Below, one piece after another: positions 926-34,118 of a stretch of DNA of 38,600 nucleotides (positions are counted from its first letter, which is position 1; each line of letters starts with the position of its first letter). The notes under the pieces were generated by a model. That model had not been told where the DNA came from and did not search any database. It worked only from the letters and a program-made list of their open reading frames with translations. The position numbers were made by a program, and so were the translations under genes. The stretch is from a virus, in IMG/VR virus record IMGVR_UViG_3300017963_000465, positions 1-38,600 of that record, one strand, 5' to 3'.

Positions 926-1330
926 TCACACCGGGATCCGGGTTACGCCCGGAACCAATCGCAACACACTCGGCTTCACGACAGGGTACCGCTTCCCCGT
1001 GGCAGTGTAGTGCACCCAGACATCGAAGACATAGTCGGTCGTATCCAAATTCGCTGTGTCCTCCGCCGTCAGGTAAATCTCCGCCACCCCTCCGCGCTCG
1101 TTCGTAATTTGCGCCTCCGCGGGCACCGTAGACTTCTTCTGAAAGAGGTACTCCCTGTGCTCAGCTTCCTTTTTGACGGTCATATAGACGACCGCCCCCG
1201 TCAAGTCGACCGGGATCCACTGCTTCTCACCCGTGGGGTCCTTCTGCTGCACCGTCAGGCGCAGTGTCTTCGTCTCGCCCCGAATGACCTCGATGGCATT
1301 ATCCGGGAGCAGCAGAGAGCTCATCGTCAT
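926..1330 (-). CDS. Small baseplate/fibre adaptor, BppU-N-like fold (134 aa)
   Basis: I chose the ATG at 1330 because it overlaps the stop of the upstream gene as ATGA and has a GAGGGTG Shine-Dalgarno. A longer open frame upstream has no such support and is Arg-rich out-of-frame sequence. The protein is predicted all-beta: a charged strand near IEVIRGETKTLRLTV, a DLTGAVVYMTVKK strand pair, then a run ending in a VHYTATGKRYPV region. The pattern of a short beta sandwich that treats an imposed value and then converts types resembles the N-terminal domain of lactococcal phage BppU and related upper-baseplate adaptors. That link is by pattern only. It sits between fibre-like genes, so a role in attaching fibres is plausible. 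Confidence 0.65.
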   Translation of the reverse strand: MTMSSLLLPDNAIEVIRGETKTLRLTVQQKDPTGEKQWIPVDLTGAVVYMTVKKEAEHREYLFQKKSTVPAEAQITNERGGVAEIYLTAEDTANLDTTDYVFDVWVHYTATGKRYPVVKPSVLRLVPGVTRIPV

Positions 1331-1779
1331 GTGCACACCCTCAACTGACCGCGGAGCGCGACAACGTCCTCGACGCGCCCTCGAAGGTCCAAGGATACCA
1401 GCTCGCCCGAAACCTGAGTAGACGTCACCACCTCTCCTTGGATCGGACGATCCTCCAAGACGCCGACAAACGCCGTTTCTTCTTCGAGCACGCCGCGCAC
1501 CGGACAAACAGTACGACCAGCATCTGCAGGCGTGGCGGAGCTCTCGTCGATGTAAAAGAACTGGACAACGTCGCCTGGACGAGGCGGAATCTGGCCATTC
1601 CCGTCTACACGCACTTCACCAGAATTACGGTCTACCTCGATCAAGCAGTCGTCCGGGAGAAGCTGACCATTCAGGTAGTAGCGCACCGAGCCCGCACCAT
1701 AGGGAGCCGTAGGAGTGAAAAAGGTCACATTGACCCCGTCGATTACACCCACCCCCTCTTCAATCCTCGGAAACCCCAT
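1327..1779 (-). CDS. Structural protein with NGQLL beta module (150 aa)
   Basis: The start at 1779 (MGFPRIEEGVG) has a GAGGGGG Shine-Dalgarno. The upstream extension in the same frame is rejected because it overlaps coding sequence of another gene in a poor context. The N-terminal half carries a module seen repeatedly in this block: DGVNVTFFTPTAPY, then VRYYLNGQLLPDD, then a G-D-V-V-Q-F-F-Y strand. It is a small beta domain common in phage fibre and baseplate proteins. The C-terminal third is acidic and changes character after a PVRGVLEEE segment. The stop overlaps the next start as ATGA, implying translational coupling. The product is a probable virion protein, with the precise function unknown. 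Confidence 0.7.
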   Translation of the reverse strand: MGFPRIEEGVGVIDGVNVTFFTPTAPYGAGSVRYYLNGQLLPDDCLIEVDRNSGEVRVDGNGQIPPRPGDVVQFFYIDESSATPADAGRTVCPVRGVLEEETAFVGVLEDRPIQGEVVTSTQVSGELVSLDLRGRVEDVVALRGQLRVCT

Positions 1780-1838
1780 GCCGCACCCCCTCGAGTAGAA
1801 ATACACAAATCTTGGTGTAAGCGCAAACCCGCCTGGAG

Positions 1839-2075
1839 TCAGATCACAACGCGATACTGGAAAGTGATATGGTCTCCTGTCTCCGGGGCAGTGTTGAAGC
1901 GAACCTTCTTCGGCGGAACCTCTTGGAAGCCCGACCCCGACAGGCTGTCGAGCTCGAGCTGCCCGTTCCTCCACACCTGCACACTGTCCGCCACGTAAGG
2001 GGAGCTGACACTGAAGAGCACCCGGACTCCGTCTGGCGTCTCAAGGGAGTCTTCATGCACCAGCGTTAGCGGCAT
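1839..2075 (-). CDS. One-domain structural protein with NGQL beta module (78 aa)
   Basis: This 78-residue protein is essentially one copy of the beta module of the next gene: ETPDGVRVLFSVSSPYVADS, VQVWRNGQLELDS, then TGDHITFQYRVV at the C-terminus. It starts at an ATG preceded by GGGGGAAGGAAG and overlaps the end of the patatin gene by 23 bases, so the two are probably coupled. Its size suggests a stand-alone decoration or fibre-attachment unit. I know no named family for it. Confidence 0.7.
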   Translation of the reverse strand: MPLTLVHEDSLETPDGVRVLFSVSSPYVADSVQVWRNGQLELDSLSGSGFQEVPPKKVRFNTAPETGDHITFQYRVVI

Positions 2076-2922
2076 CTTCCTTCCCCCGGAGGATCATACT
2101 CCTGATCTTCTCGGGATCGAAATCCAAACTCGAACACCCGAGAGACCTGTCAGGCCGGACAACCCTGATCTTCACGAAACGCTTGCCCGGGTCACCTGCC
2201 CCTCGTGCGATGCGTTCGTTGTGGCGAATGGCCAATTTCAGGTCGTTCTCCACGATCTCATTCATCATGATGCTGATCATGCGCTGGAACACATCCGGGC
2301 CATTCGGATTTTCGAGAGGGCTCCAAGCAGCCGGATAAGTCTGCGTCATGATGACATCCACCTCAGTGGCTCCGGCTTCAATCGCAGCCCGCAGCGGTGT
2401 CACCGTCCGAATACCCCCATCAGAATAGAGCTCCCCATCGATCCTGATCGGAAGCAGAAAGACCGGGTAGCTGGCACTGGCCAGGACCGCGCTGACAAGA
2501 TCCTCCGTGGTCTCATCGAAGAGCTTGTAAACACCCGAATCCAGAGACACCGTCCCCATGAGGAGACGCTTGCCGCTCTGCAGCACTCTGTCCCTGGAGT
2601 AGTGAGCTTCGATGAGCCCACGCAAAGGAGCGCTGTTGTACAGTGCCGGCTGCCAAAGCGCATGCAACATTCCAAACGGGAACCAGCGCTTGTAGACATC
2701 CGGTGTGGACACCCCGAGCCAGATATCGTGGAGCCCCTTCCAGGCCGCCTTCTCTTCACCCTTCGGGTGTTGCACGAGCTTGAGCGAATTGATAGCACCG
2801 ATGCTCGTTCCGGCATTGATGTCGTAGTGGCGCTCCTCCTCGTGGAGCCACTGCCAGCACACCCCGACCTGATAAGCCCCCTTCGCCCCACCACCGGACT
2901 GAACCAGCGCCGTCACGCTCAT
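2053..2922 (-). CDS. Patatin-like phospholipase
   Basis: This is a 289-residue alpha/beta hydrolase of the patatin family, which hydrolyses acyl esters of phospholipids with a Ser-Asp dyad. All three signatures are present: the oxyanion-hole loop SGGGAKGAYQ (residues 9-18), the nucleophile elbow GTSIG (38-42, Ser40) and the catalytic DGG (168-170, Asp168). The strand before the Asp (LPIRIDGELYSDGG) matches known family members. No signal peptide or membrane segment is visible. It is locked into the fibre block, with an ATGA overlap with the upstream structural gene and a 23-base overlap with the downstream one. It is therefore expressed with late virion genes. This differs from patatins in CBASS defence, where a nucleotidyltransferase sits next door. 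Whether it is a virion part or a late cytosolic enzyme acting on host membrane is open. Confidence 0.9.
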   Translation of the reverse strand: MSVTALVQSGGGAKGAYQVGVCWQWLHEEERHYDINAGTSIGAINSLKLVQHPKGEEKAAWKGLHDIWLGVSTPDVYKRWFPFGMLHALWQPALYNSAPLRGLIEAHYSRDRVLQSGKRLLMGTVSLDSGVYKLFDETTEDLVSAVLASASYPVFLLPIRIDGELYSDGGIRTVTPLRAAIEAGATEVDVIMTQTYPAAWSPLENPNGPDVFQRMISIMMNEIVENDLKLAIRHNERIARGAGDPGKRFVKIRVVRPDRSLGCSSLDFDPEKIRSMILRGKEDAANAGA

Positions 2923-4034
2923 GTGTCATTCTCCACGCGACTGAGCGCGTAGAAGGTAATACTTCCGTGCTCGCCACCGAATTCGACGTTGCTCTCGAGG
3001 TGCACGCGGAGGCGCACGTTGTCGGAACTCCTGAGAGACTTGTCCGCCACGTAGATTAGCGGGATCTGCATCACATCGTGCTGAATACCGCGCTTCGTTC
3101 CCCCGAGGGCCGGCAAAACAACATGGTTACCCCGGCACTCCTGAATAATCTGCCACAGGGTCCGATATCGCACAGACGCAACCTCGACCCAACCGACACC
3201 AGGTACATAGACCTCGGTGTCGTACCGGATCGCATCGTTGATCACCACATCGGAACTCGCGTTGAGCTCTGCCTCTTCCAAGTAGAGAACCCTGCCCTCC
3301 GAGGGCTGCAGGAACCACGAGGAACCGTTCTCGTAGCTGTAAGTCGCCACGACGCTGTTCCCCTCCTGGGACACCCGGAAAACCACAGCGCCATTCGCAA
3401 AGTCGACGTAGTAGTCCTCTGGCGTGACCGGATCCCAATCATCGGAAAACCACCCACGCATTGTCTGCTCCACGCCATCAACCTTCACGACCACGTTGTG
3501 GGTAGTCGCCAATGCATCGTCGCGCAAAAACTTACCGGCATAGATGTTGATCCAGATCCGCCCTGCCGTAGCACTCTTCCACGTGATCCCTGTACCCTGA
3601 TCCACCAGAGCTTCGTCTATCGACCTACCCGCCTCGCTCCACCAGGTTGTTCTGTCAGCGAAGTTGTGACTCGCCCGGATCAATTCCGACCCTGCTAGCC
3701 TCGGGCCAATCCCGATCGTAGGCGACTTGTCATCCTGAGCCCTTGGGAACGTGACGATTGGATTCCCGTCTGAATCTGTGTTCGGACCCGGCAACGGCTC
3801 CCCGTCGTGAGCCGCAACCACAGTATCAAGCCAGCCCTCGTTCTCAACATCCAGAGCCGCCTTGAAGACGATCGTGCAGACCTCTGTCCCAGAATCATAC
3901 GTCACGTCCCGAAGCGCGACGACAATGTCCGAGTCCTGAATCTGCGCAGCAAGGGCCCCAACGTCTGGCTCGGTTCTTCCAGGGTCCAGGCCCGTGAAAG
4001 CCGAGAGCGCACGGGGATACGGTGTATCTGCCAT
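2919..4034 (-). CDS. Large tail/fibre structural protein (371 aa)
   Basis: This 371-residue protein is predicted mostly beta. The N-terminus has MADTPYPRALSAFTGLDPG followed by an acidic region. The middle contains paired modules: a VVVKVDGVEQTM strand, a YYVDFANGAVVFRV segment and a VVATYSYENG strand, which look like diverged copies of the neighbouring NGQL beta module. The C-terminal third has VLPALGGTKRGIQHDV and a V-R-L-R-V-H-L strand. The start shares TGATG with the upstream gene's end and has a GGAGGGTGAGCTG Shine-Dalgarno. Its stop overlaps the patatin start. It is a probable baseplate-distal or fibre protein of unknown function. Confidence 0.7.
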   Translation of the reverse strand: MADTPYPRALSAFTGLDPGRTEPDVGALAAQIQDSDIVVALRDVTYDSGTEVCTIVFKAALDVENEGWLDTVVAAHDGEPLPGPNTDSDGNPIVTFPRAQDDKSPTIGIGPRLAGSELIRASHNFADRTTWWSEAGRSIDEALVDQGTGITWKSATAGRIWINIYAGKFLRDDALATTHNVVVKVDGVEQTMRGWFSDDWDPVTPEDYYVDFANGAVVFRVSQEGNSVVATYSYENGSSWFLQPSEGRVLYLEEAELNASSDVVINDAIRYDTEVYVPGVGWVEVASVRYRTLWQIIQECRGNHVVLPALGGTKRGIQHDVMQIPLIYVADKSLRSSDNVRLRVHLESNVEFGGEHGSITFYALSRVENDT

Positions 4035-5302
4035 CAGCTCACCCTCCAGAACTCGATGAACGCATACGTGATTCCTATCGTTTCCGTCTCTCCAGGCGGA
4101 TTACCATATCGAAGCTGTAGAACCTTCGAGCTGCCGGTCAGCGTGATCGTCACAACACCGCCGATAGTCACACGCGCATCCGAGACAACAGGACGTTCTT
4201 GCCCATAATCCAGCTCAGTTGTGTCTGTACTGTTGTACAGATTCGCCTCTCCGGGCTTGTTTGCAGCGTCGATCTTGCATCCCCAGGCGACTCGATACGT
4301 CCCCGTCAAAGCCCCGGTTGTCAGCGTCACACGAACTTGGTCCTCTCCGGTCGTTGTTGCCCGAGCCGACACCTCTTGTCGCTGGTAGTCCCGCCCGAAC
4401 ACAGGAACGTCCGTTGCAGCCGGAACACCAGAGGCATCACCCACCCAGTACTTGTCCTCAGCCAAGTTCGGGAGAGCGTTGCTGCGGCCCGCACCAAAGA
4501 TCTCCAAGACACCGAGAGAGCCGTGGCTTCTGAGAACAACGGCGATCTTCTGGACGAAATTTGTCGCTCCGGTCGGGGCCGAATCCTCCAAGCCCCCAGC
4601 TGTCGTCTCGCTCACGTAGACCTCGTCGGCAGCAGAGAAAGCGGAGGTGTCTTGTAGCCCTATGCGGCCCACAGCGACAACGTCGCCCGGAACAACATTC
4701 GTAATCGTCTCCTTTGCGATGCCGAAAGCCGGCATGGTTGCCGAAGAGTTCGCCTGAGCCAGCTCAACCGTGGGCTTGTTCGATCCGACACTGTAACCCA
4801 CCAAGTAGACCACTTCGCCGGCATTGATCGTCCCCGCGCTACTCTTCAAACAGCTGACAACGAGCCGCTCGGCCTCCTCAACGAGTCCTGACGACACGAA
4901 TTCGAGGCCGTCCTCGCCACTCGTGACGGCAACGCTCTTCCCACCCTGACCGAAGTACGAAGAGGGCGTATCCGATAGACCAAGAAAGTCGCTCACCAGA
5001 GCGGTGAAATCCAGACCATCTTCCCCTGCGTTGACTGTCGCGGCCTTTTCGGCGTGGCCCGTATAGTCGCTCGGGGTGTCCGCGAGGTCTGTGAAGGCTG
5101 TTGCGCCAGCTCCGCTGACTGCCACCCAGGTGGGCGTGGTCGCAACGAGCATCCACAGCGTGTTGTTGTCTTCCTGACGAGCCAGCTTATACAGGTCCCC
5201 CGAGTCGAAACCGCTCGCGCCCTCTCGAGCCGCCTGATCGGCATAAGACCACTGATATGGGATATGGATGTTCCCAGTGCCTAGCGACTGATGCAGCGCC
5301 AT
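4034..5302 (-). CDS. Tail fibre protein with LxDTPxxY repeats (422 aa)
   Basis: The diagnostic element is a tandem pair of about 38 residues (roughly 70-135): LADTPSDYTGHAEKAATVN followed by GEDGLDF, and LSDTPSSYFGQGGKSVAVT followed by GEDGLEF. This LxDTPxxYxGxxGKxVxV...GLxF repeat is widespread in phage tail fibres and likely forms a trimeric shaft. A middle domain rich in small residues (GTINAGEVVYLVGY onward, with GDVVAVGRIGLQD) resembles the capping or heat-stable decoration repeats of other fibres. The C-terminal 130 residues form a beta domain ending ITYAFIEFWRV. The start has a GGGGGAGAAG Shine-Dalgarno. The C-terminus is a candidate receptor-binding tip. Confidence 0.8.
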   Translation of the reverse strand: MALHQSLGTGNIHIPYQWSYADQAAREGASGFDSGDLYKLARQEDNNTLWMLVATTPTWVAVSGAGATAFTDLADTPSDYTGHAEKAATVNAGEDGLDFTALVSDFLGLSDTPSSYFGQGGKSVAVTSGEDGLEFVSSGLVEEAERLVVSCLKSSAGTINAGEVVYLVGYSVGSNKPTVELAQANSSATMPAFGIAKETITNVVPGDVVAVGRIGLQDTSAFSAADEVYVSETTAGGLEDSAPTGATNFVQKIAVVLRSHGSLGVLEIFGAGRSNALPNLAEDKYWVGDASGVPAATDVPVFGRDYQRQEVSARATTTGEDQVRVTLTTGALTGTYRVAWGCKIDAANKPGEANLYNSTDTTELDYGQERPVVSDARVTIGGVVTITLTGSSKVLQLRYGNPPGETETIGITYAFIEFWRVS

Positions 5303-5311
5303 CTTCTCCCC

Positions 5312-5563
5312 CTAAATCGTGACAACGCTCCCGTCGTCCACGTAGACAATTGTGCCCTCATTGGTCAGCACAATATTGTCGAACGCCGCCGTACCAGTCG
5401 CACGGAGAGAAAAGACCCCTTCGTCATCCCGGGCCTTCAAACCGGACCCCTGCACCCACCGGACGGCACCGACGATATCCGGGTCTTCCGTGTAGAGATC
5501 CGTTTCGAACTGGAGCTCTTCCTCGATCGCGGGCCCCGGTATCCGGTCCGGTGTCTTTCCCAT
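5312..5563 (-). CDS. Small conserved-looking structural protein (83 aa)
   Basis: This is an acidic 83-residue protein that begins MGKTPDRIPGPAIEEEL and ends in a beta hairpin (TIVYVDDGSVVTI). It starts 4 bases after the previous gene's stop, with only a weak AAGAAG Shine-Dalgarno, so translation may depend on the upstream gene. The first half (LQFETDLYTEDPDIVGAVRW) looks like an attachment peptide. It is not recognised as a family. Its position between fibre genes suggests a fibre-associated virion protein. Confidence 0.6.
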   Translation of the reverse strand: MGKTPDRIPGPAIEEELQFETDLYTEDPDIVGAVRWVQGSGLKARDDEGVFSLRATGTAAFDNIVLTNEGTIVYVDDGSVVTI

Positions 5564-5566
5564 GGG

Positions 5567-6214
5567 TCACTTCTTCTTGCTCTTGGCTTTCGCCTTTGGC
5601 GGGGGCTTCGTCTTGGTCCTCGCCTTGGCCTTCGCCGGTTCTTCCCTCTTGGTCTCCGCTCTCGTCTCCGGCGCCCCAGAAGCGCACTCCTCCCTGTCCT
5701 CCTGACGGCGCTTCTCCGCCAAGCTCATACTGGGGCGCACTCCCGCCGGAGCGGGGCCCTCTCCCGTGTAAACGATGTCCCCACCGTCCACCTCGATATC
5801 CCCGCGGTCAATCATCTCCGCCAGGTTCTCCAACTGCGCCCTCACCACCTTGTACCGGCGTTCGAGCTCTTCCACCACGCCCTGCAGAGCGTCAAGCTCG
5901 CCCTGCGCTCGAAGCATGATAGAAGAAGAGTTCTCCAGTAGAGAATGGACGCAACCAGCAGCTCGGTGCAAATACCGCTTTGCGAACTCAGCCGCTGCTG
6001 TCTGGTGTTCCGTGTCCATCATTCCGAGCTTCTCGTCCCGCTCCCCCTCGAGCACATCGTGGAGGTCCGAAATCCGAGCTACCGCCGTCCGAAGTGCTGC
6101 CGCTCCTCCATCAATTCTCTTGACCTTGTCCTCAGCCCCCTGCAAGCGGTCACGAAAGACCTCGAGCGCTTCCTGGTATGTGCCGAGCTTCACCTCGATC
6201 TGAAAAGGGTTCAT
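5567..6214 (-). CDS. Coiled-coil protein with poly-basic tail (215 aa)
   Basis: Residues 10-150 are strongly helical with heptad character (YQEALEVFRDRLQGAEDKV; ELERRYKVVRAQLENLAEMI), predicting coiled coils. After a Gly/Pro hinge the last 40 residues become an Arg/Lys/Pro/Ala tail, KAKARTKTKPPPKAKAKSK, ending in a poly-Lys run. A very similar low-complexity tail ends the gene at 27170-27517. The start has a GGCGGAGA Shine-Dalgarno. Positive tails of this kind can bind DNA, RNA or negatively charged surfaces, but no function is established here. It lies between two fibre-like genes. Confidence 0.7.
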   Translation of the reverse strand: MNPFQIEVKLGTYQEALEVFRDRLQGAEDKVKRIDGGAAALRTAVARISDLHDVLEGERDEKLGMMDTEHQTAAAEFAKRYLHRAAGCVHSLLENSSSIMLRAQGELDALQGVVEELERRYKVVRAQLENLAEMIDRGDIEVDGGDIVYTGEGPAPAGVRPSMSLAEKRRQEDREECASGAPETRAETKREEPAKAKARTKTKPPPKAKAKSKKK

Positions 6215-6245
6215 TCTCCGCCGTCTCCTCGGAAAAGGGCGCTGT

Positions 6246-8165
6246 TTACACGCCGTAGATGATCATGCAGATCACATCACCCGACTTGATGGTGAATGTA
6301 AACTTGAGCTCGCCCGTGGCGGCATCATCGCCCGGATAGACATCGTGAATGGCCGTCGCCGCACCTCGCTGAAGCTGCCCGTTCAGATAGACATCCACGT
6401 CGTCAGGGAAGGTCACACTACTGTAATCGCCCAACTGAGCGTCCATCCGGCCAGCTCCGCCATCATAGGCGATGTTCGTCCCCGCCGTAATGGCCGCCCC
6501 ACTCGTAATGGCACAGCAGCTCTTGTCTCTGTTCTCGGCAATCCCGGACTGCACCATGGCGTCCAGGAGGGAGACCTCTCCATAGAGAGTCTTGAAGTCG
6601 TCCCACTCCGTAGTCGTGTCCGACAGCTTGATCCCATCAGTCTGAGTCCACGTGGACCCCGTCTGGTTGCCGTCGTCGAAGTAGATCTCTCCTCCTGCTT
6701 GAATGTGCAGGTCATTGGATCCCGTCGTTTCGACATGGCCAGCAGTGACCCCGATATCGATTTCGGTCCCGGAAGTGTCGACCTTCAGCTCATTGGCAAA
6801 GTCGCTCGTGACCGCGTTGTTGTCGAAGACGTCCACCGCCGTCCCGAAATCGATCTCGGAAGCGCTCCCTCCAGAGTTCTCGATAACCGAGAGCAGATCG
6901 GCGTCGTTGGTATCCCGAATCTTCCAGAAGTACCCGGCACCGACATCAAGGGTCGCGTTGTTGCCCAGCTCGACCGGAGTCGTTCCCTGTTGATCATAGG
7001 CAGTCTGACGAGAAACCGAAGTCGCCCCCGCGAGGTCGACGAAAATCCCGGACAGGAACGCCTGCTCAGGAATCGCATCGAGGTTGATCCGCCTGACGTA
7101 GGCGTAGTTGATGTCCGTCCCCCCGATATCGTTCCCATCGGCCTGAATGAGGTCGTCCCCCGTATCGTTGATCTTCACGAACGAGATCTGCACCTGATGG
7201 TCCGTGTCATTGAACGTATCCCCGTCAACGACACCGCTCTCTGCTTGAAGGAGCCCGTAGATGTCCCTGCCATCCGCGCCCTCGATGATGTTCCGAGTGT
7301 CCCCATCCACAAGCGCCACAAGGTTCTTCGGACGGATGGAATTCGCTCCCGAAACCTCGGTGAGAGCATGGGCGCCCACATCCCCGGAAAGCGTCGCAAC
7401 CACAGCTCCATTGGCTGTTCCGGCATTGACCGCAGCGGTCTCAGTCGGAACCTCACTGCCCGCAGCGCTGAGCACCACCACGTCACCCGCACCGCCCGTG
7501 AGCGTCGCACCCTGCGTCCACGTAGCATTCGTGACCGTAGTTGTCGTGGCGATGGTGTTCTGAGCCGTACCAGCAATCTTCGCTGTGGCGTCCATGGTGT
7601 CGCCCGCACCGGCCGCAGCGGAAACAGTTGGGTGCAGAGTGGTCGAAGCTGCGTAAAGCGTTCCAGCTCCAGCCCCCAGATTGATAGCAGCAATGAGGTT
7701 GTCGAGGCTGTCGCTGGCAGTAGCTCCGATCAGAACATTCCCATCGACATCCGTCAGAGTCGTTTGAAACGTGTACGTCTTGGAGTCGATCGTGACCGTC
7801 TCAGTGTTCCCTGCATTCTGTCCGAAAGACAGTGTCCCACTGGCATAGACTGCGGCAGGCACCGTGACATCGGTGAGCAGCTGAGCCCGGAACAGGAACT
7901 TCTTCTCCTCGATATCGTCGAGGTCGAAGTTCAAATCGTAAAGCCCGCGCTTCTTGGTGTTGACGGTGGGGACGTCATCATACCAGTTCAAGCTGACATC
8001 GGCTTTGAGGATACGATTGACCTGCGAACGGAGGGAGTTCATGTCGTCGAGCAGCGTAACCGCGGACGTCTCCATCGCCGATCCGGCGGCAACGGTGTCG
8101 TCGTAGTCCGTGGTCTCTCCCGAATTCCGGATCTGCGTGTCTTGTCGAAGATACGAACGGCTCAT
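6246..8165 (-). CDS. Large fibre/tail structural protein (639 aa)
   Basis: The N-terminus (MSRSYLRQDTQIRNSGETT, then a short coiled coil near LLDDMNSLRSQVNRIL) looks like an attachment region. Residues about 115-215 form a domain met in many phage virion proteins, with TVTIDSKTYTFQTTLTDV, GNVLIGATASDSLDNLIAAI, and T-A-K-I-A-G-T-A-Q-N-T-I-A. The middle (about 350-520) is a long beta-rich shaft with repeated SEIDFGTAVDVFD and GTEIDIGVTAGHVET strands. The C-terminus again carries the NGQL module (VDVYLNGQLQRG, then GELKFTFTIKSGDVI). The start has a GAGGTGG Shine-Dalgarno. It is the largest fibre-side protein complete in the window and a candidate major side fibre or whisker. Confidence 0.75.
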   Translation of the reverse strand: MSRSYLRQDTQIRNSGETTDYDDTVAAGSAMETSAVTLLDDMNSLRSQVNRILKADVSLNWYDDVPTVNTKKRGLYDLNFDLDDIEEKKFLFRAQLLTDVTVPAAVYASGTLSFGQNAGNTETVTIDSKTYTFQTTLTDVDGNVLIGATASDSLDNLIAAINLGAGAGTLYAASTTLHPTVSAAAGAGDTMDATAKIAGTAQNTIATTTTVTNATWTQGATLTGGAGDVVVLSAAGSEVPTETAAVNAGTANGAVVATLSGDVGAHALTEVSGANSIRPKNLVALVDGDTRNIIEGADGRDIYGLLQAESGVVDGDTFNDTDHQVQISFVKINDTGDDLIQADGNDIGGTDINYAYVRRINLDAIPEQAFLSGIFVDLAGATSVSRQTAYDQQGTTPVELGNNATLDVGAGYFWKIRDTNDADLLSVIENSGGSASEIDFGTAVDVFDNNAVTSDFANELKVDTSGTEIDIGVTAGHVETTGSNDLHIQAGGEIYFDDGNQTGSTWTQTDGIKLSDTTTEWDDFKTLYGEVSLLDAMVQSGIAENRDKSCCAITSGAAITAGTNIAYDGGAGRMDAQLGDYSSVTFPDDVDVYLNGQLQRGAATAIHDVYPGDDAATGELKFTFTIKSGDVICMIIYGV

Positions 8166-8226
8166 ACGCTTCCACCTCTAGTCTGTGCCTGCCGTCTCCC
8201 AACATCGATACTACCGGCCCCAGCCC

Positions 8227-10464
8227 CTACGAAGCAACCTCGGGTGTCACCGTGACGCTCCCTTTCGTCACCACCTCGGTCTCTTCAACGATGAGATTCC
8301 CGTCACTGTCCAGCTTTGATGTGAGCACCGTGGAACCGTCGTCGTCGAGATGTCCCTGGATCTCGACATTTCGGAACTTCGTGGTCTCGTTCAGAACATC
8401 CAGGGCATCATAGAACTCCTCTACGTAGAGGTTCTCTGCGAACTCCCGACCACGAAGCACAGCATCCGCCGCCGACTCGGCTGCCGTCTCGGCCACCTGA
8501 AGAGAATTCCCTGGAAGCACCCCCAAGCGAATCCGTACCACGGCTTCCACGAGGTAGTTCTCTCCAGACGTCACCTTGACAGTCTGTGTGACCTCCTTCC
8601 GTCCGTCGAGGTGCTCCTGAAGCTCCCGCATGAGTGCCACCGTAGGAGCTGCGTAGAAACCTCCCGAATCGAGAGCCAGGATGGGCACCGTGACAAGGTT
8701 CGCGCTGCAGTCTCGGGACAGCCAAGCGTCCACGTGCTCTTCAATGTCCGCCGTATAGCCTTCCACAGTGTCCGAGACGTCCACCACAGCCGTCTGGATG
8801 GTCGTCAGGTCCTCACGCACCCCCGAAGTCCCGATGGCCGCCTCGGTGGCCTGACGGGCCTGATCAGCGGTGTAGAGGAGCGTGTCCGCCGTCGTCACAT
8901 TCACCCCGATGTCCGACACCTTGTCCCGAGTCTGCCCCATCGTAGCGATCTCAGCCTCAGCGCTCGACCGAACTCCGGCAGCCGCGCCATCGATGACCGT
9001 CGACTCCGTGTTGATGTGTCCGCTCTCGGAAAGGACCCCCTCAGCACTCGTATCGATACCGCTCAGCCACGCCTGAAGGCTCGCGAGATCAACAGAGGTC
9101 AGCTGGGAGGGGGAAGTCACCGGGAAACTGTTAACGAGTGCCAGGGCTGCTGCTGCTTGCGTCTTGATGCTGTTCGCATCGGTGTCCAGTGTCGCAGTCC
9201 TGGCCGTGATATCACTAGCCTCCGTCCGGATCTCGTCCGAGTTGTTCTTCACCAATCGGGCGCTGCCGATGGCGGCGATCATATCATTGTCGATGAGGGT
9301 CGTCTGCGAAGCGATGTCCGTAAGCGCAGTCGCCAACGTGGCCAGCTCGTCATCGGCGATATCCAGAGAGTCATTCGCATCCGAGACCGCCTGCGTCACT
9401 GTGGGCTCAGGCTCCTGTACCGTGCTGTTGATGGCCAAGAGAAGGTTCTGGAGCTCCAGATCCCCCTCCGCGGACCGGCTCGAGATCGCTTTTGCCACAG
9501 CCACCTTACCAGCGGTCGGATCCGCAAACGTTCCTCCGAGCCCCTCGTAGTCCTCCTTGGTAATAGCGGCGTCGCGGGTCTTCCACACTGCTGGAGCTGC
9601 TGCTCGGGCTTCCTCGATGGTCTCCGGGTCCGAGGCACCCACCGCAGCCTCGGCGTTGTTGATGACCAAAGAGATGTTTGTGAAGTTGACCACCAGGGGG
9701 CTGCGCTCTGACGTGATCTCCCCCACACCGACCATCCCTGCGAGGCCCTTCGTGACCACGTAGACCACGACAATCGAATCCTCCGACGTCGGAACACTGC
9801 CCGCGATGCCGTCACCAAAGTTGATCGTAGGAGGGTCGTCATTGTAGCCGATTTCGAAGACCTCCTCGTCCTCGAAATCCAGGAAACGCTTCTCCGCCCA
9901 CGAAGCACCTCCCACCGTGACTTTCACGCCTCCGGCCAAGTACAACGAACCCGTCACACGCCGCAAAGAGAAGGACTGGTTCTCGGTCCCATCGGAAACG
10001 AAGGTGTCTGTGACGGTCTCGCCCTGATAGGCCGGAACCGTCTTCTGACCGTCCCCCGGATTCCACGTGACTCCCTCCGCCACCTCGTAGATCGTCCCGT
10101 CGTCCGCTGTGAACTGGAAGCCCGCGTTCATGGGCACCGCGAACGCATAGACCTGTCCGAGCGACACCTGAAGGTCCACAGAACCTGCAATAGCCCCGGC
10201 CATCTTGTAGCCGAGCTGGCGCGTCAAGAGCGCCATAGACCTGCGCGTTCGCGCCGTCGCAACAAAGAGGTCAGTCGCCCGTCGATCCAGATAAAACGCC
10301 AAAGTGTCCCCGAGGAACGCCACGTGATCGAGGATCAGGATCCCGAGGCTCGCCTGAGCGAAGTCGTTGAAGACCGAAGCAAACTGGATCTGGGTTCGAG
10401 CTCGAAGTTCGTCCAGAAAGGAGTCGAAGTCGAACCCGCTGTAGGAGACTCGATTGAGAGCCAT
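8227..10464 (-). CDS. Baseplate wedge protein, gpJ/gp6-like, with helical insert
   Basis: This protein belongs to the baseplate J-like (P2 gpJ / T4 gp6) family, which forms the wedge ring that triggers sheath contraction. The hallmarks are an N-terminal helical region (ILILDHVAFLGDTLAFYLDR), the INFGDGIAGSVPT turn (about residue 214), the ASDPETIEEARAAAP segment (278-292) followed by RDAAITKEDYEGL, and a C-terminal domain restarting at ANLVTVPILALDSGGFYAAP with R-K-E-V-T-Q-T-V-K-V. Unusually, residues about 335-585 are a low-complexity Ala/Thr/Asp-rich helical stretch inserted between the two halves of the family core. The start has a GGAGTGAG Shine-Dalgarno. It lies next to gp25-like and spike genes, as expected for a baseplate operon. 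Confidence 0.85.
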   Translation of the reverse strand: MALNRVSYSGFDFDSFLDELRARTQIQFASVFNDFAQASLGILILDHVAFLGDTLAFYLDRRATDLFVATARTRRSMALLTRQLGYKMAGAIAGSVDLQVSLGQVYAFAVPMNAGFQFTADDGTIYEVAEGVTWNPGDGQKTVPAYQGETVTDTFVSDGTENQSFSLRRVTGSLYLAGGVKVTVGGASWAEKRFLDFEDEEVFEIGYNDDPPTINFGDGIAGSVPTSEDSIVVVYVVTKGLAGMVGVGEITSERSPLVVNFTNISLVINNAEAAVGASDPETIEEARAAAPAVWKTRDAAITKEDYEGLGGTFADPTAGKVAVAKAISSRSAEGDLELQNLLLAINSTVQEPEPTVTQAVSDANDSLDIADDELATLATALTDIASQTTLIDNDMIAAIGSARLVKNNSDEIRTEASDITARTATLDTDANSIKTQAAAALALVNSFPVTSPSQLTSVDLASLQAWLSGIDTSAEGVLSESGHINTESTVIDGAAAGVRSSAEAEIATMGQTRDKVSDIGVNVTTADTLLYTADQARQATEAAIGTSGVREDLTTIQTAVVDVSDTVEGYTADIEEHVDAWLSRDCSANLVTVPILALDSGGFYAAPTVALMRELQEHLDGRKEVTQTVKVTSGENYLVEAVVRIRLGVLPGNSLQVAETAAESAADAVLRGREFAENLYVEEFYDALDVLNETTKFRNVEIQGHLDDDGSTVLTSKLDSDGNLIVEETEVVTKGSVTVTPEVAS

Positions 10465-10465
10465 G

Positions 10466-10855
10466 TCAACTCACTCCGGTGTCGGCTGGGATAGGCAGGG
10501 TGAAGCGCCGCGGCTGCTGCGTGGCCCGCACGATGTAGTTCAAGATCAAAACCACCTCCCCCTTGTCCAGGTCCCGCACCGCGTCGATCCCTGTCAAGAG
10601 GACCCTTGTTTCGTACCGTCCCACCGCCGTCATCACATCGGTCCGAAGGTTCTCAACCATGAGCGGTGTGTTTGGTTCGAAGACGTAGTCATAGGCGCCT
10701 GTCCCCAAATCTTTACGCATCAGACGCGCCCGACGGGGCGTGCTGATCAACTGGCGGAGAGACTCCTCGATGGCAAGCTCATCCGACGAAGGCGCCGGAA
10801 GCTCACGACCCACCTTCTGGAACGGAAACTTGAACCCTCTCACGAATGACGCCAT
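10466..10855 (-). CDS. Baseplate wedge protein, gp25/gpW-like
   Basis: At 129 residues this matches the usual size of the gp25-like family, which joins the baseplate inner ring to the sheath. Visible family features are the early hydrophobic stretch FVRGFKFPFQ, the ELAIEESLRQLISTPRR helix (family L-x-x-I-L-x-T-x-x-G-x-R motif, here diverged), the EPNTPLMVENLRTDV region and the terminal beta strands VVLILNYIVRATQQP and RRFTLPIPAD. The ATG has a GAGGG Shine-Dalgarno and lies just upstream of the J-like gene, a gene order typical of contractile tails. Confidence 0.8.
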   Translation of the reverse strand: MASFVRGFKFPFQKVGRELPAPSSDELAIEESLRQLISTPRRARLMRKDLGTGAYDYVFEPNTPLMVENLRTDVMTAVGRYETRVLLTGIDAVRDLDKGEVVLILNYIVRATQQPRRFTLPIPADTGVS

Positions 10856-19173: not shown

Positions 19174-20016
19174 TCACCCCCTGTAGCAAACCGATGCCTG
19201 CTCGTACTTACGAGCACACCGCGTTCCCATAGTGGAGTCCGCGTAGAGCCACCCCGCCAACTTCCGGGTCTCTGATACAACCAAATCGAAACGGAACGCC
19301 TCCGCATCTCGCACAGCGCCCTTGTACCGATACCTTGTACAAACCTCCCTCACGGAAGGCCGAATGCCGGCTCTCGATAGAACGCGGGAGAGCCCACCTG
19401 CAAAAGCAGAAGACGCCGTCAAGTATACAGCCCGTACAGACTTACCACGCACGCACCAAGACCCGTCCGAATCCCACAGCCCCCTGACGAAATGAGGCAG
19501 GCACGAAGTAGAAAGAGAAGGAAACAGCATAGAAGAAGCCTTCGACCCAGACTCCATCCCCAAAGACTTCAGAGAATACAGCATCCGCTTCGAAGACCAC
19601 GCCGCCCGCCAACAGGAGACGTCTCTCATCTTCGACACCTTACCCCCAAAGCCAACGAGATCCGAAGCCGCCCGCACGACCTGCTCAGACCCCGCCAAGA
19701 GGACCTGGTAACTCACCCCCTCGATCTCCTGCAGGTGTCCGTCCCCGTACAATAGCCCCAGAACCCAGGCGGCCGAGGCTGTCAAAGCACCCTCGAAGAA
19801 GTCCTCATTCAAAGGAACCCTCCGCAAACGGCCCTGCTGACGCGCCAGCGTCACTGCCTCCGCACGAGTACGAAGAGCGCCCACGTTCTTCAAGTGCGTC
19901 CGTACCAAACGCCCAGAACGACCGAGCCGCTCCCCGATCTGATTCGAAGATAGACCCTCCTCGTACAGAGCCCTCATCTCTGCCCGTTCCTTTCCCGTAA
20001 CCGGCCGGCCCCGCAT
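19174..20016 (-). CDS. LAGLIDADG homing endonuclease with N-terminal HTH
   Basis: I chose the ATG at 20016 for its strong AGGAGGTGCTG Shine-Dalgarno; the frame stays open upstream without support. The 280-residue protein has two LAGLIDADG motifs: AWVLGLLYGDGHL (83-95, Asp92) and FVRGLWDSDGSW (176-187, Asp184). Both catalytic acids are present, so it is probably a single-chain active enzyme. Residues 9-45 form a helix-turn-helix (YEEGLSSNQIGERLGRSGRL) of the kind fused to homing enzymes for extra DNA contact. It stands free between the chaperone and the tape measure, with no room for a group I intron core outside the ORF. A near-copy of the tape-measure start lies on its far side. LAGLIDADG enzymes are rarer in phages than HNH or GIY-YIG ones. 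Confidence 0.9.
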   Translation of the reverse strand: MRGRPVTGKERAEMRALYEEGLSSNQIGERLGRSGRLVRTHLKNVGALRTRAEAVTLARQQGRLRRVPLNEDFFEGALTASAAWVLGLLYGDGHLQEIEGVSYQVLLAGSEQVVRAASDLVGFGGKVSKMRDVSCWRAAWSSKRMLYSLKSLGMESGSKASSMLFPSLSTSCLPHFVRGLWDSDGSWCVRGKSVRAVYLTASSAFAGGLSRVLSRAGIRPSVREVCTRYRYKGAVRDAEAFRFDLVVSETRKLAGWLYADSTMGTRCARKYEQASVCYRG

Positions 20017-20165
20017 CAGCACCTCCTGTGGAAACACCACACCACACGAAAGTACCAACATCGCAGAGAACGCACAACGAAAAACCATACCCCATGAAAT
20101 ACGGAGCTCAGATTTCCGCTTTCCGATCACCTTTCAACCCCCGGAAGGCCGCCCGAAGACTACGG

Positions 20166-22481: not shown

Positions 22482-23207
22482 TCACAGATCGCTCAGACTG
22501 ATCTCGTCGATGTAGTCGACCTCGATGTCAAGCTCCATGATGCTGACCTCGCTCGAAGTCGCATCGAAATCACTCCCGGATTTGTATCGGATAGGAATAC
22601 AACCAACCAACTTCCAAGCTCGCGCCGGAATCTTCGAGAGCAGGCGTTCCCCTCCAGCGATAGGCCCGAAGCTCAAAAGGGACCCCCCGAACGCCGTCGC
22701 CGTGATCTCCGCAATAAGCGGAAAGAGCTCGATACTGGCATCGTCCACATGCGAAAAGTACTGCACGAGGAGCAAATCTCGGCGTGGAGAAGGGCCGCCG
22801 ATCCGAGGAAACCCAAACGCCCCGGCAACAGCCCCTAAAACTCCCAACCCATCCAAGCTGCCGCCGCCCCTCGCCAACCCCGTCGCCAAGCCGTAAGTAG
22901 ACGACTGATAATTCTCGGGATCGCCCGTGACCGCGGTTTGCACCCAACGCCAGAAGTCGCTGTCCGCGAAGGTCGCCCCTCGAGACAGGGTCATCGTGCC
23001 AATTTTGGCCGACTTGACGAAGGCTTTGGTGTAGTGCCAGTTGCCCTCTTTGACCTCGTGCGTTTCGATCTCGATCTCTGGCGCTGTGATTGCGGAGAAC
23101 CCGAACATGGGTGTGAAAACAGGCAGCGCCAGAGCTTCGATGGGCGCGATGTCCATCAGCCAGAATCTGTTGGTTTGGAGGTGATCGTTCAACTCCGAAC
23201 GCGGCAC
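22482..23207 (-). CDS. Tail tube protein (first paralogue, gp19/TIGR02241-like, 241 aa)
   Basis: It starts at GTG with a GGAGGTGAACT Shine-Dalgarno. The core matches contractile-tail tube proteins: EIEIETHEVKEGNWHYTKAF, IGTMTLSRGATFADSDFWRW, and at the end WKLVGCIPIRYKSGSDFDAT followed by SSEVSIMELDIEVDYI. Between these lies a Gly-rich insertion (about 110-145, LGAVAGAFGFPRIGGP) not present in the shorter paralogue next door, suggesting an extra surface loop or a specialised tube end. Two tube paralogues in tandem occur in several large myoviruses. This one may be a terminal or baseplate-proximal tube form. Confidence 0.82.
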   Translation of the reverse strand: MPRSELNDHLQTNRFWLMDIAPIEALALPVFTPMFGFSAITAPEIEIETHEVKEGNWHYTKAFVKSAKIGTMTLSRGATFADSDFWRWVQTAVTGDPENYQSSTYGLATGLARGGGSLDGLGVLGAVAGAFGFPRIGGPSPRRDLLLVQYFSHVDDASIELFPLIAEITATAFGGSLLSFGPIAGGERLLSKIPARAWKLVGCIPIRYKSGSDFDATSSEVSIMELDIEVDYIDEISLSDL

Positions 23208-23247: not shown

Positions 23248-23790
23248 TCAGGCAGGCTCGGTCTTCTTCACGTCGAAGAACTCGTAGGCAACATCCATCT
23301 CTTCGACCGAGACCTCGCTGGACGTGGCGTCCAGGTCTGCAGCGACCTTGTCCCGGATCGGGAAGGCGTTGTAGAGGATGTACTGCACGGCCGGAGAAGC
23401 AGCCTCCAGCTTGAGCGCGCTGTACGGGGCCTCATCGCCCTCGTTCCGATTGAGGAAGCCGATACGGTGGAAGTGATCGATCGTGACCGTGGCACGGTAA
23501 GCGCCCTTGCCTTCGACCACCTTGCGCATCCAGTCGTAGAACGTAGTGTCGCGCCACGTGACCCCACGCGAGAGCGTGACGTCGGAAACGGTCGGATTGC
23601 CCGGATACTTCCGAGTGTAGACGTCCAGACCTTCCTTGTACTCCGCGGCCTCGCTGGAAAGCTCCGGCGTGGAGACAGCCGAGAAACCCGCCTGAACTTC
23701 ACCCGGAGACAGAATGTCCTGCGCCGCTTCGGTGTCCACCGTGACGTGGTACCGCATGCTGTGCAGGAAATCGTTCTCGAGTTGTCTCAT
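23248..23790 (-). CDS. Tail tube protein (second paralogue, 180 aa)
   Basis: This is the compact tube fold: FSAVSTPELSSEAAEYKEGL, VSDVTLSRGVTWRDTTFYDW and the C-terminal KVAADLDATSSEVSVEEMDV. These correspond to the same segments of the neighbouring tube gene. Its 180-residue length is typical for the major tube protein that lines the sheath. It begins with MRQLENDFLHSMRYHVTV after a GAGGA Shine-Dalgarno. It is probably the main tube subunit because of its size and its proximity to the sheath. Confidence 0.85.
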   Translation of the reverse strand: MRQLENDFLHSMRYHVTVDTEAAQDILSPGEVQAGFSAVSTPELSSEAAEYKEGLDVYTRKYPGNPTVSDVTLSRGVTWRDTTFYDWMRKVVEGKGAYRATVTIDHFHRIGFLNRNEGDEAPYSALKLEAASPAVQYILYNAFPIRDKVAADLDATSSEVSVEEMDVAYEFFDVKKTEPA

Positions 23791-24516: not shown

Positions 24517-27093
24517 TCATGCGTTGAGAGTCTTCTGCGTGAACCGGAAGCGAACGAACTCGGCAGGCTTGAGCGGAGCAAGGGCGACGTCGATAACGAC
24601 CTCCCCGTTGTCGATGCTCTCCTGCGTATTGTTCGTGCTGTCCACGATGACCCTGAAAGCCTCCGAGGAGCTCGAGCCCGCGAACAGCCCGTTGTTGAAC
24701 TGGAGCAGCAGGAAGCCGTCCAGCTGAGCCTTGATTCGACCCCAGAGCGTCGGCCCGTTGGGCTCGAACACGATCCAGTGGGTGGCGTTGTAGATGCTTC
24801 GCTCGATGAACATGAACATCCGCCGCACCGGCACGTACCTCCAGTCGCTCTGACTGGAAATCGTCCGGGTACCCCAGACCGCAGTCCCCGTCTCCGGGCC
24901 CGAGACCAGAGCGTTGATCCGGTTCGGATTGAGGATGTCCAGCTCGCCCTGCTCCGGCACCGTCTCCAGGCTGGAGAAGAAGCGGATCTGCCCATCCACC
25001 GTTCCGGCCGGCGCCTTCGCGACATTCCGAGTGGTGTCCGTTCGCGCGTAGATACCCGCGATGTGACAGACAGCCGACATGAGGAGGTCCCGGTTGTCGC
25101 TGAGCGGGTCCGCCACATTGATCCACGGCCAATACATCGCCGCGAACTTGCTCTGGCGGTTCAGCGTGAACCGATACCAGTCGACCGCCTCCTGAGCGGT
25201 GAGTCCACTCGGAGGCTGCAGAATAGCGAAACGGTCTCCACCAGACGGCTGGCTCTCCCGACCATCAACGTAGTCGAGGATGTCGCCCGTGATGGTGACG
25301 TCTCCGACGAAGTCGGGGATGCAGAGCTGCAGGAGCTCCCGCACCTTGGTGAGAGCGTAGAGACCCTCGTAGGTCGGGATGAGAGTCGGGCTGGTGAACT
25401 GATCACGACCCCATTCGTTGGGATCCGTGAACGTTCCATCCGCCCCCTGTGCCCACAGCGCCTCGGGACCGCCGGCAGGCCAGGTGTACTTCGTCTGGTC
25501 GCCGAAGTCCGCCGTGTGGGCGGTCTCGACCGGCGCCGCGTAGTACATCACCGTCACCAGGGTGTTGGCGTCGGCTGCCGTGTCCAGCGTGACATCGATC
25601 GCGCCATCGGTATAACCGATGGTGTTTGTTCCAGCGGCGTCGACATCTCCGGTCAGGTTCCCGGAACCATCATCGATGATGGTCTTCGCAGCTCCACCGG
25701 AAGTGTAGGAGATCGTGACAGTGCGGGGCTGCACTGGCACCTCGCCGAGATCCTCCTGAATGAGGGGTAGTCCGGTCGCTGTCCCGTCGCCTCCAGCGGC
25801 GAGGACACGAGACATCAGCCGCGTGTTCAGAGCGCCGGGAACTTCATCTCCACCAGGCTCCGTCACAGCGATGATATCGGACAGGTCGTTGAGCACGTCC
25901 GGGAAGTACTTCCCAGAAGTCGAATCCGAAAAATCGACCTCCTCGTACTGCTCCTGCACGGAGTAGCCGCCCAGCGACGTGTTGTAGAGCCAGACGTTGA
26001 CGTTCCACGCCGAGTACAACCCGGTGTCCGCATCGTAGTTGTCGACGTTACCCTCGACCGTCACCCGGATGTCGTCGCCCCAAGTCCCAGCACTGATAGG
26101 GTTCATGTCCCAGGCATCGATGATGTAGTCCACCAAGATTGGGGACCCATCATGCGGAGCCGTGGTAGCCGTGAAGTCCCAGGCCCCCGTCTCGTAGTCG
26201 ATGTTGCCAGCGGACACATCACCGGCCAGAGTCCCAGCCGTCGCCGAGTCGTCACAGCCCTTGTCCACAGACGCCGGGGTGCACGCAATGCCGATCGCCG
26301 CCGCATCAGGGACCTCCGTGACATCGAAAGTCACCGTGAAGATGCCCGTGACACAGTCCAGAGTGGCCACCGTACCTGCCACCGTACTCCCGGTCATCGT
26401 TCGACCATCCGCAGCCAGCGTCGTGAAGTCGAGCGTGGTAGGAGCCGCACCTACGAGCCAGTCGAGCTGAGTCGCGGCCGCCGAAGTGTCCGGCACGATC
26501 GCCAGGAGCTTCTCATCGATGCCGTCAAAGTCCGCCGCGATGGTTGGGAGAATGCCAGGAGGCACTCGACCTTCGAAGCTGAGCTCGGCACCATCTCCGA
26601 CAAGCAGAGTGGTTCCATCCCGCTCGACGCACTGCGTCGAAGCGACAGGCGTGTCCGCCTCGCGCCACCGGATGGACATGCTGAAGGGCACGATCGGCGT
26701 GTCGCCACCGTTCACCTTCAGCTGGGTGGTCAGGGCAGTCTCCGAGAACACCGTCTGGGATCCATCGCCCGTGTCCAGCTCGAAGTCGTACTGAGCCGAC
26801 TGGAGCTTGGCTTCCGACATATCAGCGTCGCCAGGCACGACACGAACAACGTAGGCTCTACGCCCTCCATTTGCGAAGTACGCCGCCATCGCCAGCGGCA
26901 AGTAACTGTTCTGCGTCAAGTCACCGAACAGGCGCGTGAACTGCTCGAAGCTCGTAACAAGCGTGGCTTCGTTCACAGGACCTTTCGTGGTGAACCCGAC
27001 GACACCGAGATTCGAAGTCGACACCCCCTGGACCACTTGGACCTGGGAGGGAATCTCCTCGATGAAGACTCCAGGAGCGAGCAGCTCGGCCAT
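24517..27093 (-). CDS. Tail sheath protein (858 aa)
   Basis: The N-terminus MAELLAPGVFIEEIPSQVQ is the classical sheath start, followed by GVVGFTTKGPVNEATLVTSF and NGGRRAYVVRVVPGD. The C-terminal half has the conserved core: FAILQPPSGLTAQEAVDWYR, SKFAAMYWPWINVADPLSDN, the GTRTISSQSDWRYVPVRR signature and a final VVIDVALAPLKPAEFVRFRF. It is about 200 residues longer than T4 gp18. The extra length is a beta-rich Asp/Thr/Gly insertion between residues about 100 and 470, including two copies of a D-D-G-S-x-N-L-x-G-D-V-type motif, which probably protrudes from the sheath. The Shine-Dalgarno is GGAGG with a 7-base spacing. Confidence 0.93.
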   Translation of the reverse strand: MAELLAPGVFIEEIPSQVQVVQGVSTSNLGVVGFTTKGPVNEATLVTSFEQFTRLFGDLTQNSYLPLAMAAYFANGGRRAYVVRVVPGDADMSEAKLQSAQYDFELDTGDGSQTVFSETALTTQLKVNGGDTPIVPFSMSIRWREADTPVASTQCVERDGTTLLVGDGAELSFEGRVPPGILPTIAADFDGIDEKLLAIVPDTSAAATQLDWLVGAAPTTLDFTTLAADGRTMTGSTVAGTVATLDCVTGIFTVTFDVTEVPDAAAIGIACTPASVDKGCDDSATAGTLAGDVSAGNIDYETGAWDFTATTAPHDGSPILVDYIIDAWDMNPISAGTWGDDIRVTVEGNVDNYDADTGLYSAWNVNVWLYNTSLGGYSVQEQYEEVDFSDSTSGKYFPDVLNDLSDIIAVTEPGGDEVPGALNTRLMSRVLAAGGDGTATGLPLIQEDLGEVPVQPRTVTISYTSGGAAKTIIDDGSGNLTGDVDAAGTNTIGYTDGAIDVTLDTAADANTLVTVMYYAAPVETAHTADFGDQTKYTWPAGGPEALWAQGADGTFTDPNEWGRDQFTSPTLIPTYEGLYALTKVRELLQLCIPDFVGDVTITGDILDYVDGRESQPSGGDRFAILQPPSGLTAQEAVDWYRFTLNRQSKFAAMYWPWINVADPLSDNRDLLMSAVCHIAGIYARTDTTRNVAKAPAGTVDGQIRFFSSLETVPEQGELDILNPNRINALVSGPETGTAVWGTRTISSQSDWRYVPVRRMFMFIERSIYNATHWIVFEPNGPTLWGRIKAQLDGFLLLQFNNGLFAGSSSSEAFRVIVDSTNNTQESIDNGEVVIDVALAPLKPAEFVRFRFTQKTLNA

Positions 27094-33496: not shown

Positions 33497-33581
33497 GGAA
33501 GGAGCCACTGAGTGGTCAGTAACCGGTCTCGAAAGCCGGGGTGGGCACCGCGTCCCAGGGGTTCGATTCCTCCTCCTTCCC
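33497..33581 (+). tRNA. tRNA-Ser(CGA)
   Basis: The acceptor stem GGAAGGA/TCCTTCC is perfect over 7 bp. The anticodon arm CCGGT-CTCGAAA-GCCGG has anticodon CGA at 33530-33532. A long type II variable arm (GGTGGG...GTCCC) and a T-arm with loop TTCGATT are present, as expected for Ser. The discriminator would be C, where G is usual for serine tRNAs. CCA is not encoded. Confidence 0.88.
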
Positions 33582-33582
33582 T

Positions 33583-33658
33583 CGCCTCGTAGCTCAACTG
33601 GTTAGAGCGCCGGGTTGTGGTCCCGGAGGTGCGGATTCGAGTCCCGTCGAGGCGCCCA
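33583..33658 (+). tRNA. tRNA-His(GTG), CCA encoded
   Basis: The acceptor stem CGCCTCG/CGAGGCG is perfect, the D-arm is GCTC/GAGC, and the anticodon arm CCGGG-TTGTGGT-CCCGG has anticodon GTG at 33617-33619. The discriminator is C73, and CCA is encoded at 33656-33658. The base before position 1 is T, so the G(-1) that is usual for bacterial tRNA-His is not encoded. The T-arm has an A53-C61 mismatch where G-C is almost universal. Confidence 0.88.
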
Positions 33659-33732
33659 GCCATCGTAGTCCAACTGGAAGAGACGCAGGGTCGAGGGCCC
33701 TGATGTTGCGGGTTCGACTCCCACCGACGGCA
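33659..33732 (+). tRNA. tRNA-like gene with anticodon GAG and C33 (copy 1)
   Basis: It begins on the base after the CCA of tRNA-His. Acceptor GCCATCG/CGACGGC (one A-C mismatch), D-stem GTC/GAC, anticodon arm CAGGG-TCGAGGG-CCCTG and T-loop TTCGACT give a clear cloverleaf with a 5-base variable loop. Loop positions 32-38 are T-C-G-A-G-G-G, so the anticodon is GAG (Leu codon CUC) but position 33 is C, not the near-universal U. Leu tRNAs also normally have a long variable arm, which is absent. C33 could pair with G37 and close the loop to three bases. Confidence 0.75.
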
Positions 33733-33785
33733 CTTGACTTTCGCCTCACCCCTCCCCCGGCTATCCTGAGCCCATGAGGTGGAAG

Positions 33786-34022
33786 ATGACCCTCATCCGA
33801 AGAACAGAAGAAGAAGACGCACCGGGGCTGGATGATCCCCCTCTCCAGGTAGGCGACGGTCTACTGGCGCTCTGGTGCTCGGGCTCCGGGGCCACCAGGT
33901 ACCTGCCCAGGGAATTCATCGACGGGATCGTCGCAGACCCGACCTTGTTCTCCCGCCTCGTGGACGAGCTCCAGGAAGAGCTCAAAATGGTCCACGCCTG
34001 GAAATTCCGAAAGCCGGTGTGA
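33786..34022 (+). CDS. Small protein between tRNAs, unknown (78 aa)
   Basis: I prefer the ATG at 33786 (MTLIRRTEEEDAPG), which has GAGGTGGAAG in front; the ATG at 33774 has no Shine-Dalgarno. The protein has an acidic start, a beta part (VGDGLLALWCSGSGATRYLP) and a C-terminal helix (FSRLVDELQEELKMVHAW). Its stop codon lies inside the next tRNA gene by 10 bases. Small ORFs inside phage tRNA arrays are common; the function is unknown. Confidence 0.6.
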   Translation: MTLIRRTEEEDAPGLDDPPLQVGDGLLALWCSGSGATRYLPREFIDGIVADPTLFSRLVDELQEELKMVHAWKFRKPV

Positions 34023-34086
34023 TCCAACTGGAAGAGGTGCAGGGTCGAGGGCCCTGTTGTTGCGGGTTCGACTCCCACCACCGGCA
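34013..34086 (+). tRNA. tRNA-like gene with anticodon GAG and C33 (copy 2)
   Basis: It has the same layout as the copy at 33659: acceptor GCCGGTG/CACCGGC (perfect), D-stem ATC/GGT, identical anticodon arm CAGGG-TCGAGGG-CCCTG, identical T-loop and discriminator A. The acceptor and D-stem differ from copy 1 by changes that keep pairing, so the structure has been maintained by selection. Again position 33 is C and the variable loop is short (5 bases). The anticodon is at 34047-34049. Confidence 0.75.
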
Positions 34087-34088
34087 TT

Positions 34089-34114: not shown

Positions 34115-34118
34115 CCCG

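Follow-up and report, generated by a model that had tools for sequence, protein, structure and literature searches.

Tailed phages are understood to cross the host membrane mainly by means of peptidoglycan enzymes and tube insertion, and lipid-cleaving enzymes tied to the tail have, to our knowledge, hardly been described. The 38.6-kb IMG/VR virus record analysed here (the window) encodes a patatin-like protein among the genes of a tail operon, which raises the question of whether this enzyme serves entry, lysis or some other step of infection.

The patatin gene and its operon

According to PHROG matches, the operon runs from a head-tail adaptor through the sheath, two tubes, a hub-like protein, the tape measure, baseplate wedges and the genes designated w9 to w5 to the patatin, followed by w3, w2 and w1 (Table 1). 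Since these include a sheath, the phage is contractile-tailed; it is a large uncultivated myophage. The two genes of the tail-tube family (22482-23207 and 23248-23790, minus strand) stand in tandem and both match PHROG 4542. A homing-type endonuclease gene (19174-20130, minus strand) has the tape measure on one side and the baseplate-hub-like gene on the other, and an array of five tRNA genes (Ser-CGA, His-GTG, two Leu-GAG and Leu-TAA) lies opposite the tail operon at 33497-34192 on the plus strand.

Table 1. Genes of the tail operon discussed in the text, with window coordinates.
Feature	Position	Strand	Basis
Tail sheath, marks contractile tail	24517..27093	-	PHROG 23, 5.7e-58
Tail tape measure, 1562 aa	14467..19155	-	PHROG 305, 3.4e-21
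Baseplate wedge (gp25/gpW-like)	10466..10855	-	PHROG 261, 5.1e-18
Baseplate wedge (gpJ-like)	8227..10464	-	PHROG 219, 3.6e-24
w9, structural protein, 639 aa	6246..8165	-	In 13 other loci, relatives precede the patatin
w8, 215 aa	5567..6214	-	Seen again upstream of patatin in other loci
w7, 83 aa	5312..5563	-	Seen again upstream of patatin in other loci
w6, tail/fibre-type protein, 422 aa	4034..5302	-	PHROG 11660 tail protein, 7e-13
w5, beta-rich virion-like protein, 371 aa, just upstream of patatin	2919..4034	-	Neighbourhood and reciprocal search
Patatin-like acyl hydrolase (predicted), 289 aa	2053..2922	-	Pfam PF01734, AF2 model, PDB matches
w3, small structural-like protein, 78 aa	1839..2075	-	PHROG virion structural match, weak (0.0046)
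w2, paralogue-like relative of w3, 150 aa	1327..1779	-	Neighbourhood comparison
w1, 134 aa	926..1330	-	PHROG 1084; L-shaped tail fibre assembly (3304)

The patatin ORF begins with ATG and overlaps w5 by 4 nt (ATGA, 2919-2922) and w3 by 23 nt (2053-2075), with an unbroken series of tail genes around it, in agreement with the initial annotation, which had described the gene as embedded between structural genes by overlapping starts and stops. The full catalytic set reported there was likewise recovered, with the oxyanion motif GGGAKG at residues 10-15, GTSIG at 38-42 (Ser40) and DGG at 168-170 (Asp168). Pfam PF01734 is matched over the whole of its profile (1-191/191; E=1.2e-26; 94.5 bits, the cut-off being 27.7), and the best PDB match by profile is PlpD (6.7e-23). 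The AF2 model, built from an alignment of 71 relatives, has a pLDDT of 95, and its best Foldseek matches in the PDB are CapV, PlpD, CapE and patatin-17 (TMq 0.61-0.71, probability 1.00). The protein is a single bare domain; no signal peptide was found in it and no fusion or virion-anchor domain in any of the relatives checked, so that the sequence gives no sign of packaging. As judged from sequence and model, the ORF can be assigned to the patatin-like family with an intact catalytic dyad and is predicted to be a lipid acyl hydrolase, with phospholipid, we infer, as its substrate.

PlpD of Pseudomonas aeruginosa (5fqu/5fya) and other bacterial patatin-like phospholipases share with this protein the fold, the GGGxK/RG and GxSxG motifs and the DGG dyad. 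PlpD, however, is secreted by the type Vd route, whereas the window patatin is a bare domain in a phage tail operon, and the two are 22% identical in the structure alignment. CapV and CapE of CBASS systems have the same catalytic core. A role as a CBASS effector was nevertheless rejected, since the protein scored 34.4 bits against an NCBIfam equivalog cut-off of 200 and the PADLOC effector models matched weakly. No nucleotidyltransferase family that would indicate an adjacent CD-NTase was detected among the ten proteins scanned at 926-10464, and the genes flanking the patatin are of tail/virion type or match no family.

The nearest relative, a 98-kb contig (L002), carries in the same place a patatin of 81% identity, the highest value among the proteins common to both (sheath 53%, gpJ-like baseplate protein 50%). 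The pair differ by a dN of 0.15 and a dS of 1.83, the latter near saturation, and the gene is under purifying selection; local recombination of the gene could be an alternative source of the high identity. In this comparison no counterparts of w5, w6 and w7 were found on the L002 contig, where a different protein occupies the place of w5. As L002 keeps the patatin without w5, the latter is not an obligate partner. A w3-type gene directly follows the patatin in L002 and L052 and is the next but one in L036.

Distribution and neighbourhood of the family

Among 50,697 GenBank phage records, 12 matched the patatin, and only 3 of these matches covered 80% or more of its length; the matching records include Rhodothermus phage RM378, in which the relative (NP_835609.1, 29% identity) lies outside a tail operon, and a 484-kb uncultured phage. 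In IMG/VR, a search with the N-terminal and Ser motifs returned 135 relatives, of which 80 were kept, many of them on contigs of 200-480 kb. The view that patatins are uncommon in phages therefore holds for cultured phages but not for uncultivated ones. Both catalytic residues, Ser and Asp, are retained in 81 of 81 patatins, and the last two residues of DGG are GG in 79. Loss of the serine in relatives, which the initial annotation had named as an observation that would speak against its proposal, was thus not encountered, although, owing to the motifs used in the search, only the conservation of Asp is free of selection. The full-length family match, the retention of Ser40 and Asp168 throughout and the dN of the L002 pair, low against its dS, show that the gene is not a chance ORF.

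In a tree of the viral patatins and 47 bacterial relatives, the window protein falls in a group made up of 66 viral rows plus a single chromosomal row from a bacterium (local support 89), and the viral rows are typified by Asp189 and Trp90. The clade is mainly viral, nearly absent from sequenced isolates and common in uncultivated, often jumbo, phages. The chromosomal row, from a Deltaproteobacteria MAG (L084:7759-8706), is nested within the viral clade and is likely the result of phage-bacterium transfer. A cellular or prophage origin was rejected, as the bacterial relatives examined had no phage structural genes near the patatin and mostly fell outside the viral clade.

Neighbourhoods were counted in 71 dereplicated loci with a G+C content of 29% to 68%. 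The adjacent gene is on the same strand in 58/60 cases upstream and 49/55 downstream, with overlapping starts in 21 loci. In 20 of the 71 loci a w5 homologue is encoded no more than 3 kb upstream of the patatin, in every case on the patatin's strand. In 35/71, one of the positions -1 to -3 is taken by w5 or by a member of a linked fibre-like supercluster, defined by single linkage and hence open to chaining; in about half of the loci these positions contain no recognised fibre gene. In 16 genomes the pairwise distances between patatins rise with those between the w5 proteins (r=0.585, p=0.0002), though exceptions are plainly seen. The linkage of patatin and tail genes recurs well beyond the window genome. 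By gene position, encoded as it is inside the tail operon with a conserved structural partner, the patatin belongs with the tail proteins.

A PHROG scan of about 240 patatin neighbours returned mostly homing/HNH endonucleases, together with scattered tail and terminase families. GIY-YIG homing endonuclease genes lie just upstream of the patatin in two loci (L014:418-1005, L033:9258-9992), and HNH genes are also frequent downstream. Small proteins that read as thermonuclease-like stand beside w5 or the patatin at L173:7110-7499, L175:6861-7211 and L080:10824-11162. A gene of 315 aa upstream of the L011 patatin had no Pfam match.

The position behind w5

The model of w5 has a pLDDT of 80 and no confident match to its fold in the PDB (best E 8.6e-4, probability 0.35), the weak matches being lectin-like. 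A reciprocal test was made in which viral contigs were searched with the w5 family alone, ignoring the patatin, and the 50 loci obtained were reduced to 45 groups at 90% identity. Of these, 25 encode a patatin downstream of w5 on the same strand, 10 a permuted NlpC/P60 protein instead, 10 neither and none both (mutual exclusion, P about 6e-5), the enzyme gene starting anywhere from an overlap to about 0.9 kb after the end of w5. Hence the slot after w5 is taken by either of two enzymes that have no relation to each other. Conversely, the permuted NlpC type was met once (L014) in 80 patatin loci. From its recurrence, w5 can be regarded as a conserved tail-fibre-like partner of either enzyme. 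In two loci, L203 (480-kb contig, G008:272997-274708) and L199, a tandem pair of patatins stands behind w5.

The NlpC/P60-type proteins of the slot are 160-220 aa long, with an invariant H32 in the N-terminal part and C125-x-E127 in the C-terminal part. Their profile matches 3kw0 (6e-4) and YiiX 2if6 (2e-3), and the L189 member matches PF05708 at 1.6e-15; a single member searched against viral contigs matched itself only. The positions of His and Cys and the YiiX-type profile match place them in the permuted NlpC/P60 (YiiX/LRAT-type) group.

The type VI secretion system (T6SS) is a relative of contractile tails. One of its permuted NlpC/P60 effectors, Tox-Act1, is a phospholipase acting on PG and PE (PMC12994826), and the pocket of YiiX holds a bound fatty acid (PMC3142127). 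The T6SS effector thus has the fold of the alternative to the patatin and is tied to a contractile-tail machine; it differs from the patatin in fold and catalytic residue and, unlike either slot enzyme, is secreted between bacteria and not phage-encoded. Both enzymes of the slot are probably lipid-acyl-cleaving. The exchange supports a lipid-directed role of the patatin, and the recurring place behind a tail protein, combined with a swap for a lipid-affine enzyme class, argues that the slot serves lipid acyl cleavage.

Possible roles in entry, lysis or other steps

The best explanation of these data, to which we give a probability of about 45%, is that the patatin is linked to the tail and hydrolyses lipid acyl bonds in the host envelope as the phage enters. 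It would be made late, in step with the distal tail (baseplate and fibre) proteins of a large myophage, and would either accompany the tail-tip or fibre apparatus or depend on it for delivery. At adsorption or contraction it would cut acyl chains of the phospholipids of the host envelope, and the loosened membrane might then allow passage of the tail tube or entry of DNA; in related phages, the permuted NlpC/P60 cysteine enzyme would fill the same slot. This reading is supported by the intact family and fold, the operon position, the recurrent partner, the purifying selection and the slot exchange. Against it stand L002 with its patatin but no w5, the half or so of loci without a fibre gene and the position of the RM378 relative. 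The initial annotation had suggested a virion-linked or late-expressed phospholipase, and the late tail-operon location and the whole catalytic set agree with this, phospholipase activity itself being a prediction. The open-licence literature yielded neither a virion proteome of a close relative nor a report of a virion-associated phage phospholipase.

More tentatively, large contractile-tailed phages may reserve the slot after a conserved tail protein for a lipase, either a serine hydrolase (patatin) or a cysteine hydrolase (permuted NlpC/P60), which the tail would carry or deliver so that the host membrane is breached, as a phage counterpart of T6SS phospholipase effectors. Phage patatins as such are already on record, in phage WO and in Mar_Mega_1 (PMC9723777). 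Mar_Mega_1 and other megaphages resemble the present case in carrying a patatin-like gene in a large genome; in the available text of that report these patatins are called a first and are treated as an auxiliary metabolic/virulence gene, with no tail-operon linkage described there (PMC9723777). New here are the recurrence of w5 as a partner and the exchange of patatin for permuted NlpC/P60; within the open-licence papers covered, which cannot prove that a prior report is absent, none described patatins as a fixed component of the tail operons of large phages, or such a swap. That a single family of lipid enzymes keeps the same position among the tail genes of highly diverse large phages, and is swapped there with an unrelated class having known phospholipases, makes the idea that phages use enzymes against the membrane on their way in or out open to direct test. 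It also connects the phage tail with the lipid effectors of the T6SS and allows genes previously listed as auxiliary metabolic or virulence genes to be read afresh.

The main rival to entry, which we consider unlikely though worthy of serious attention, is a late lysis enzyme made in the cytosol from the structural operon, which would attack the inner membrane from inside and help or time lysis. The late operon ends also fit this explanation, as does the absence of a signal peptide, and there is a precedent in phage WO of Wolbachia, where a patatin is likewise encoded beside a tail module and a lytic cassette of patatin plus holin has been proposed (PMC9203015). The WO cassette, however, contains a holin-like and an ankyrin protein (PMC9203015), whereas the window patatin lies inside the tail operon and has neither: no adjacent small holin-like protein was found, the maximum hydropathy of w1, w2, w3 and w5 being 0.82-0.93, and no adjacent ankyrin-repeat protein, the nine neighbouring genes scanned giving no Pfam match. 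Small membrane or signal-bearing proteins do occur one to three genes upstream of the patatin in the outlying relatives L039, L059, L078 and L079, two such proteins standing immediately before the L039 patatin (L039:9165-9850) in a lysis cassette-like arrangement, a holin-like gene of 107 aa follows w5 in L208, and no endolysin family was seen among 48 proteins scanned on the L002 contig. Over all loci, however, small membrane proteins are no more frequent at one or two genes' distance from the patatin than further off (6/115 as compared with 31/361), its neighbours in the window lack transmembrane segments, and its immediate neighbours are tail or fibre proteins. Furthermore, of 18 contigs carrying a patatin, 6 also match a family of peptidoglycan hydrolases (M15, lysozyme or SLT), so that the earlier suggestion that the enzyme might help lysis independently of holin-endolysin is not supported.

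It is quite improbable that the enzyme is unconnected with the virion and remodels host lipids inside the cell, or excludes competitor phages via membrane lipids, the operon merely providing late expression. Such a function would suit a single soluble domain, the RM378 copy outside a tail operon and the auxiliary metabolic label given earlier to megaphage patatins (PMC9723777). Against it, the w5-patatin order is kept across genomes of 29-68% G+C and the slot is swapped with one particular enzyme class. Moron genes, by comparison, usually move about.

Finally, action on non-phospholipid acyl groups of the phage or host surface (lipoproteins, LPS acyl or capsule ester), for instance in tail protein maturation or receptor trimming, is suggested by the acyltransferases among permuted NlpC/P60 relatives, for which action on lipidated proteins has been proposed (PMC3142127), and by the beta-rich w5 with its lectin-like matches, but is very improbable, given that the closest solved relatives (PlpD, CapV, CapE) are phospholipases and that the enzyme is retained where w5 and w6 have been exchanged, which would ill suit an enzyme devoted to one receptor or tail protein.
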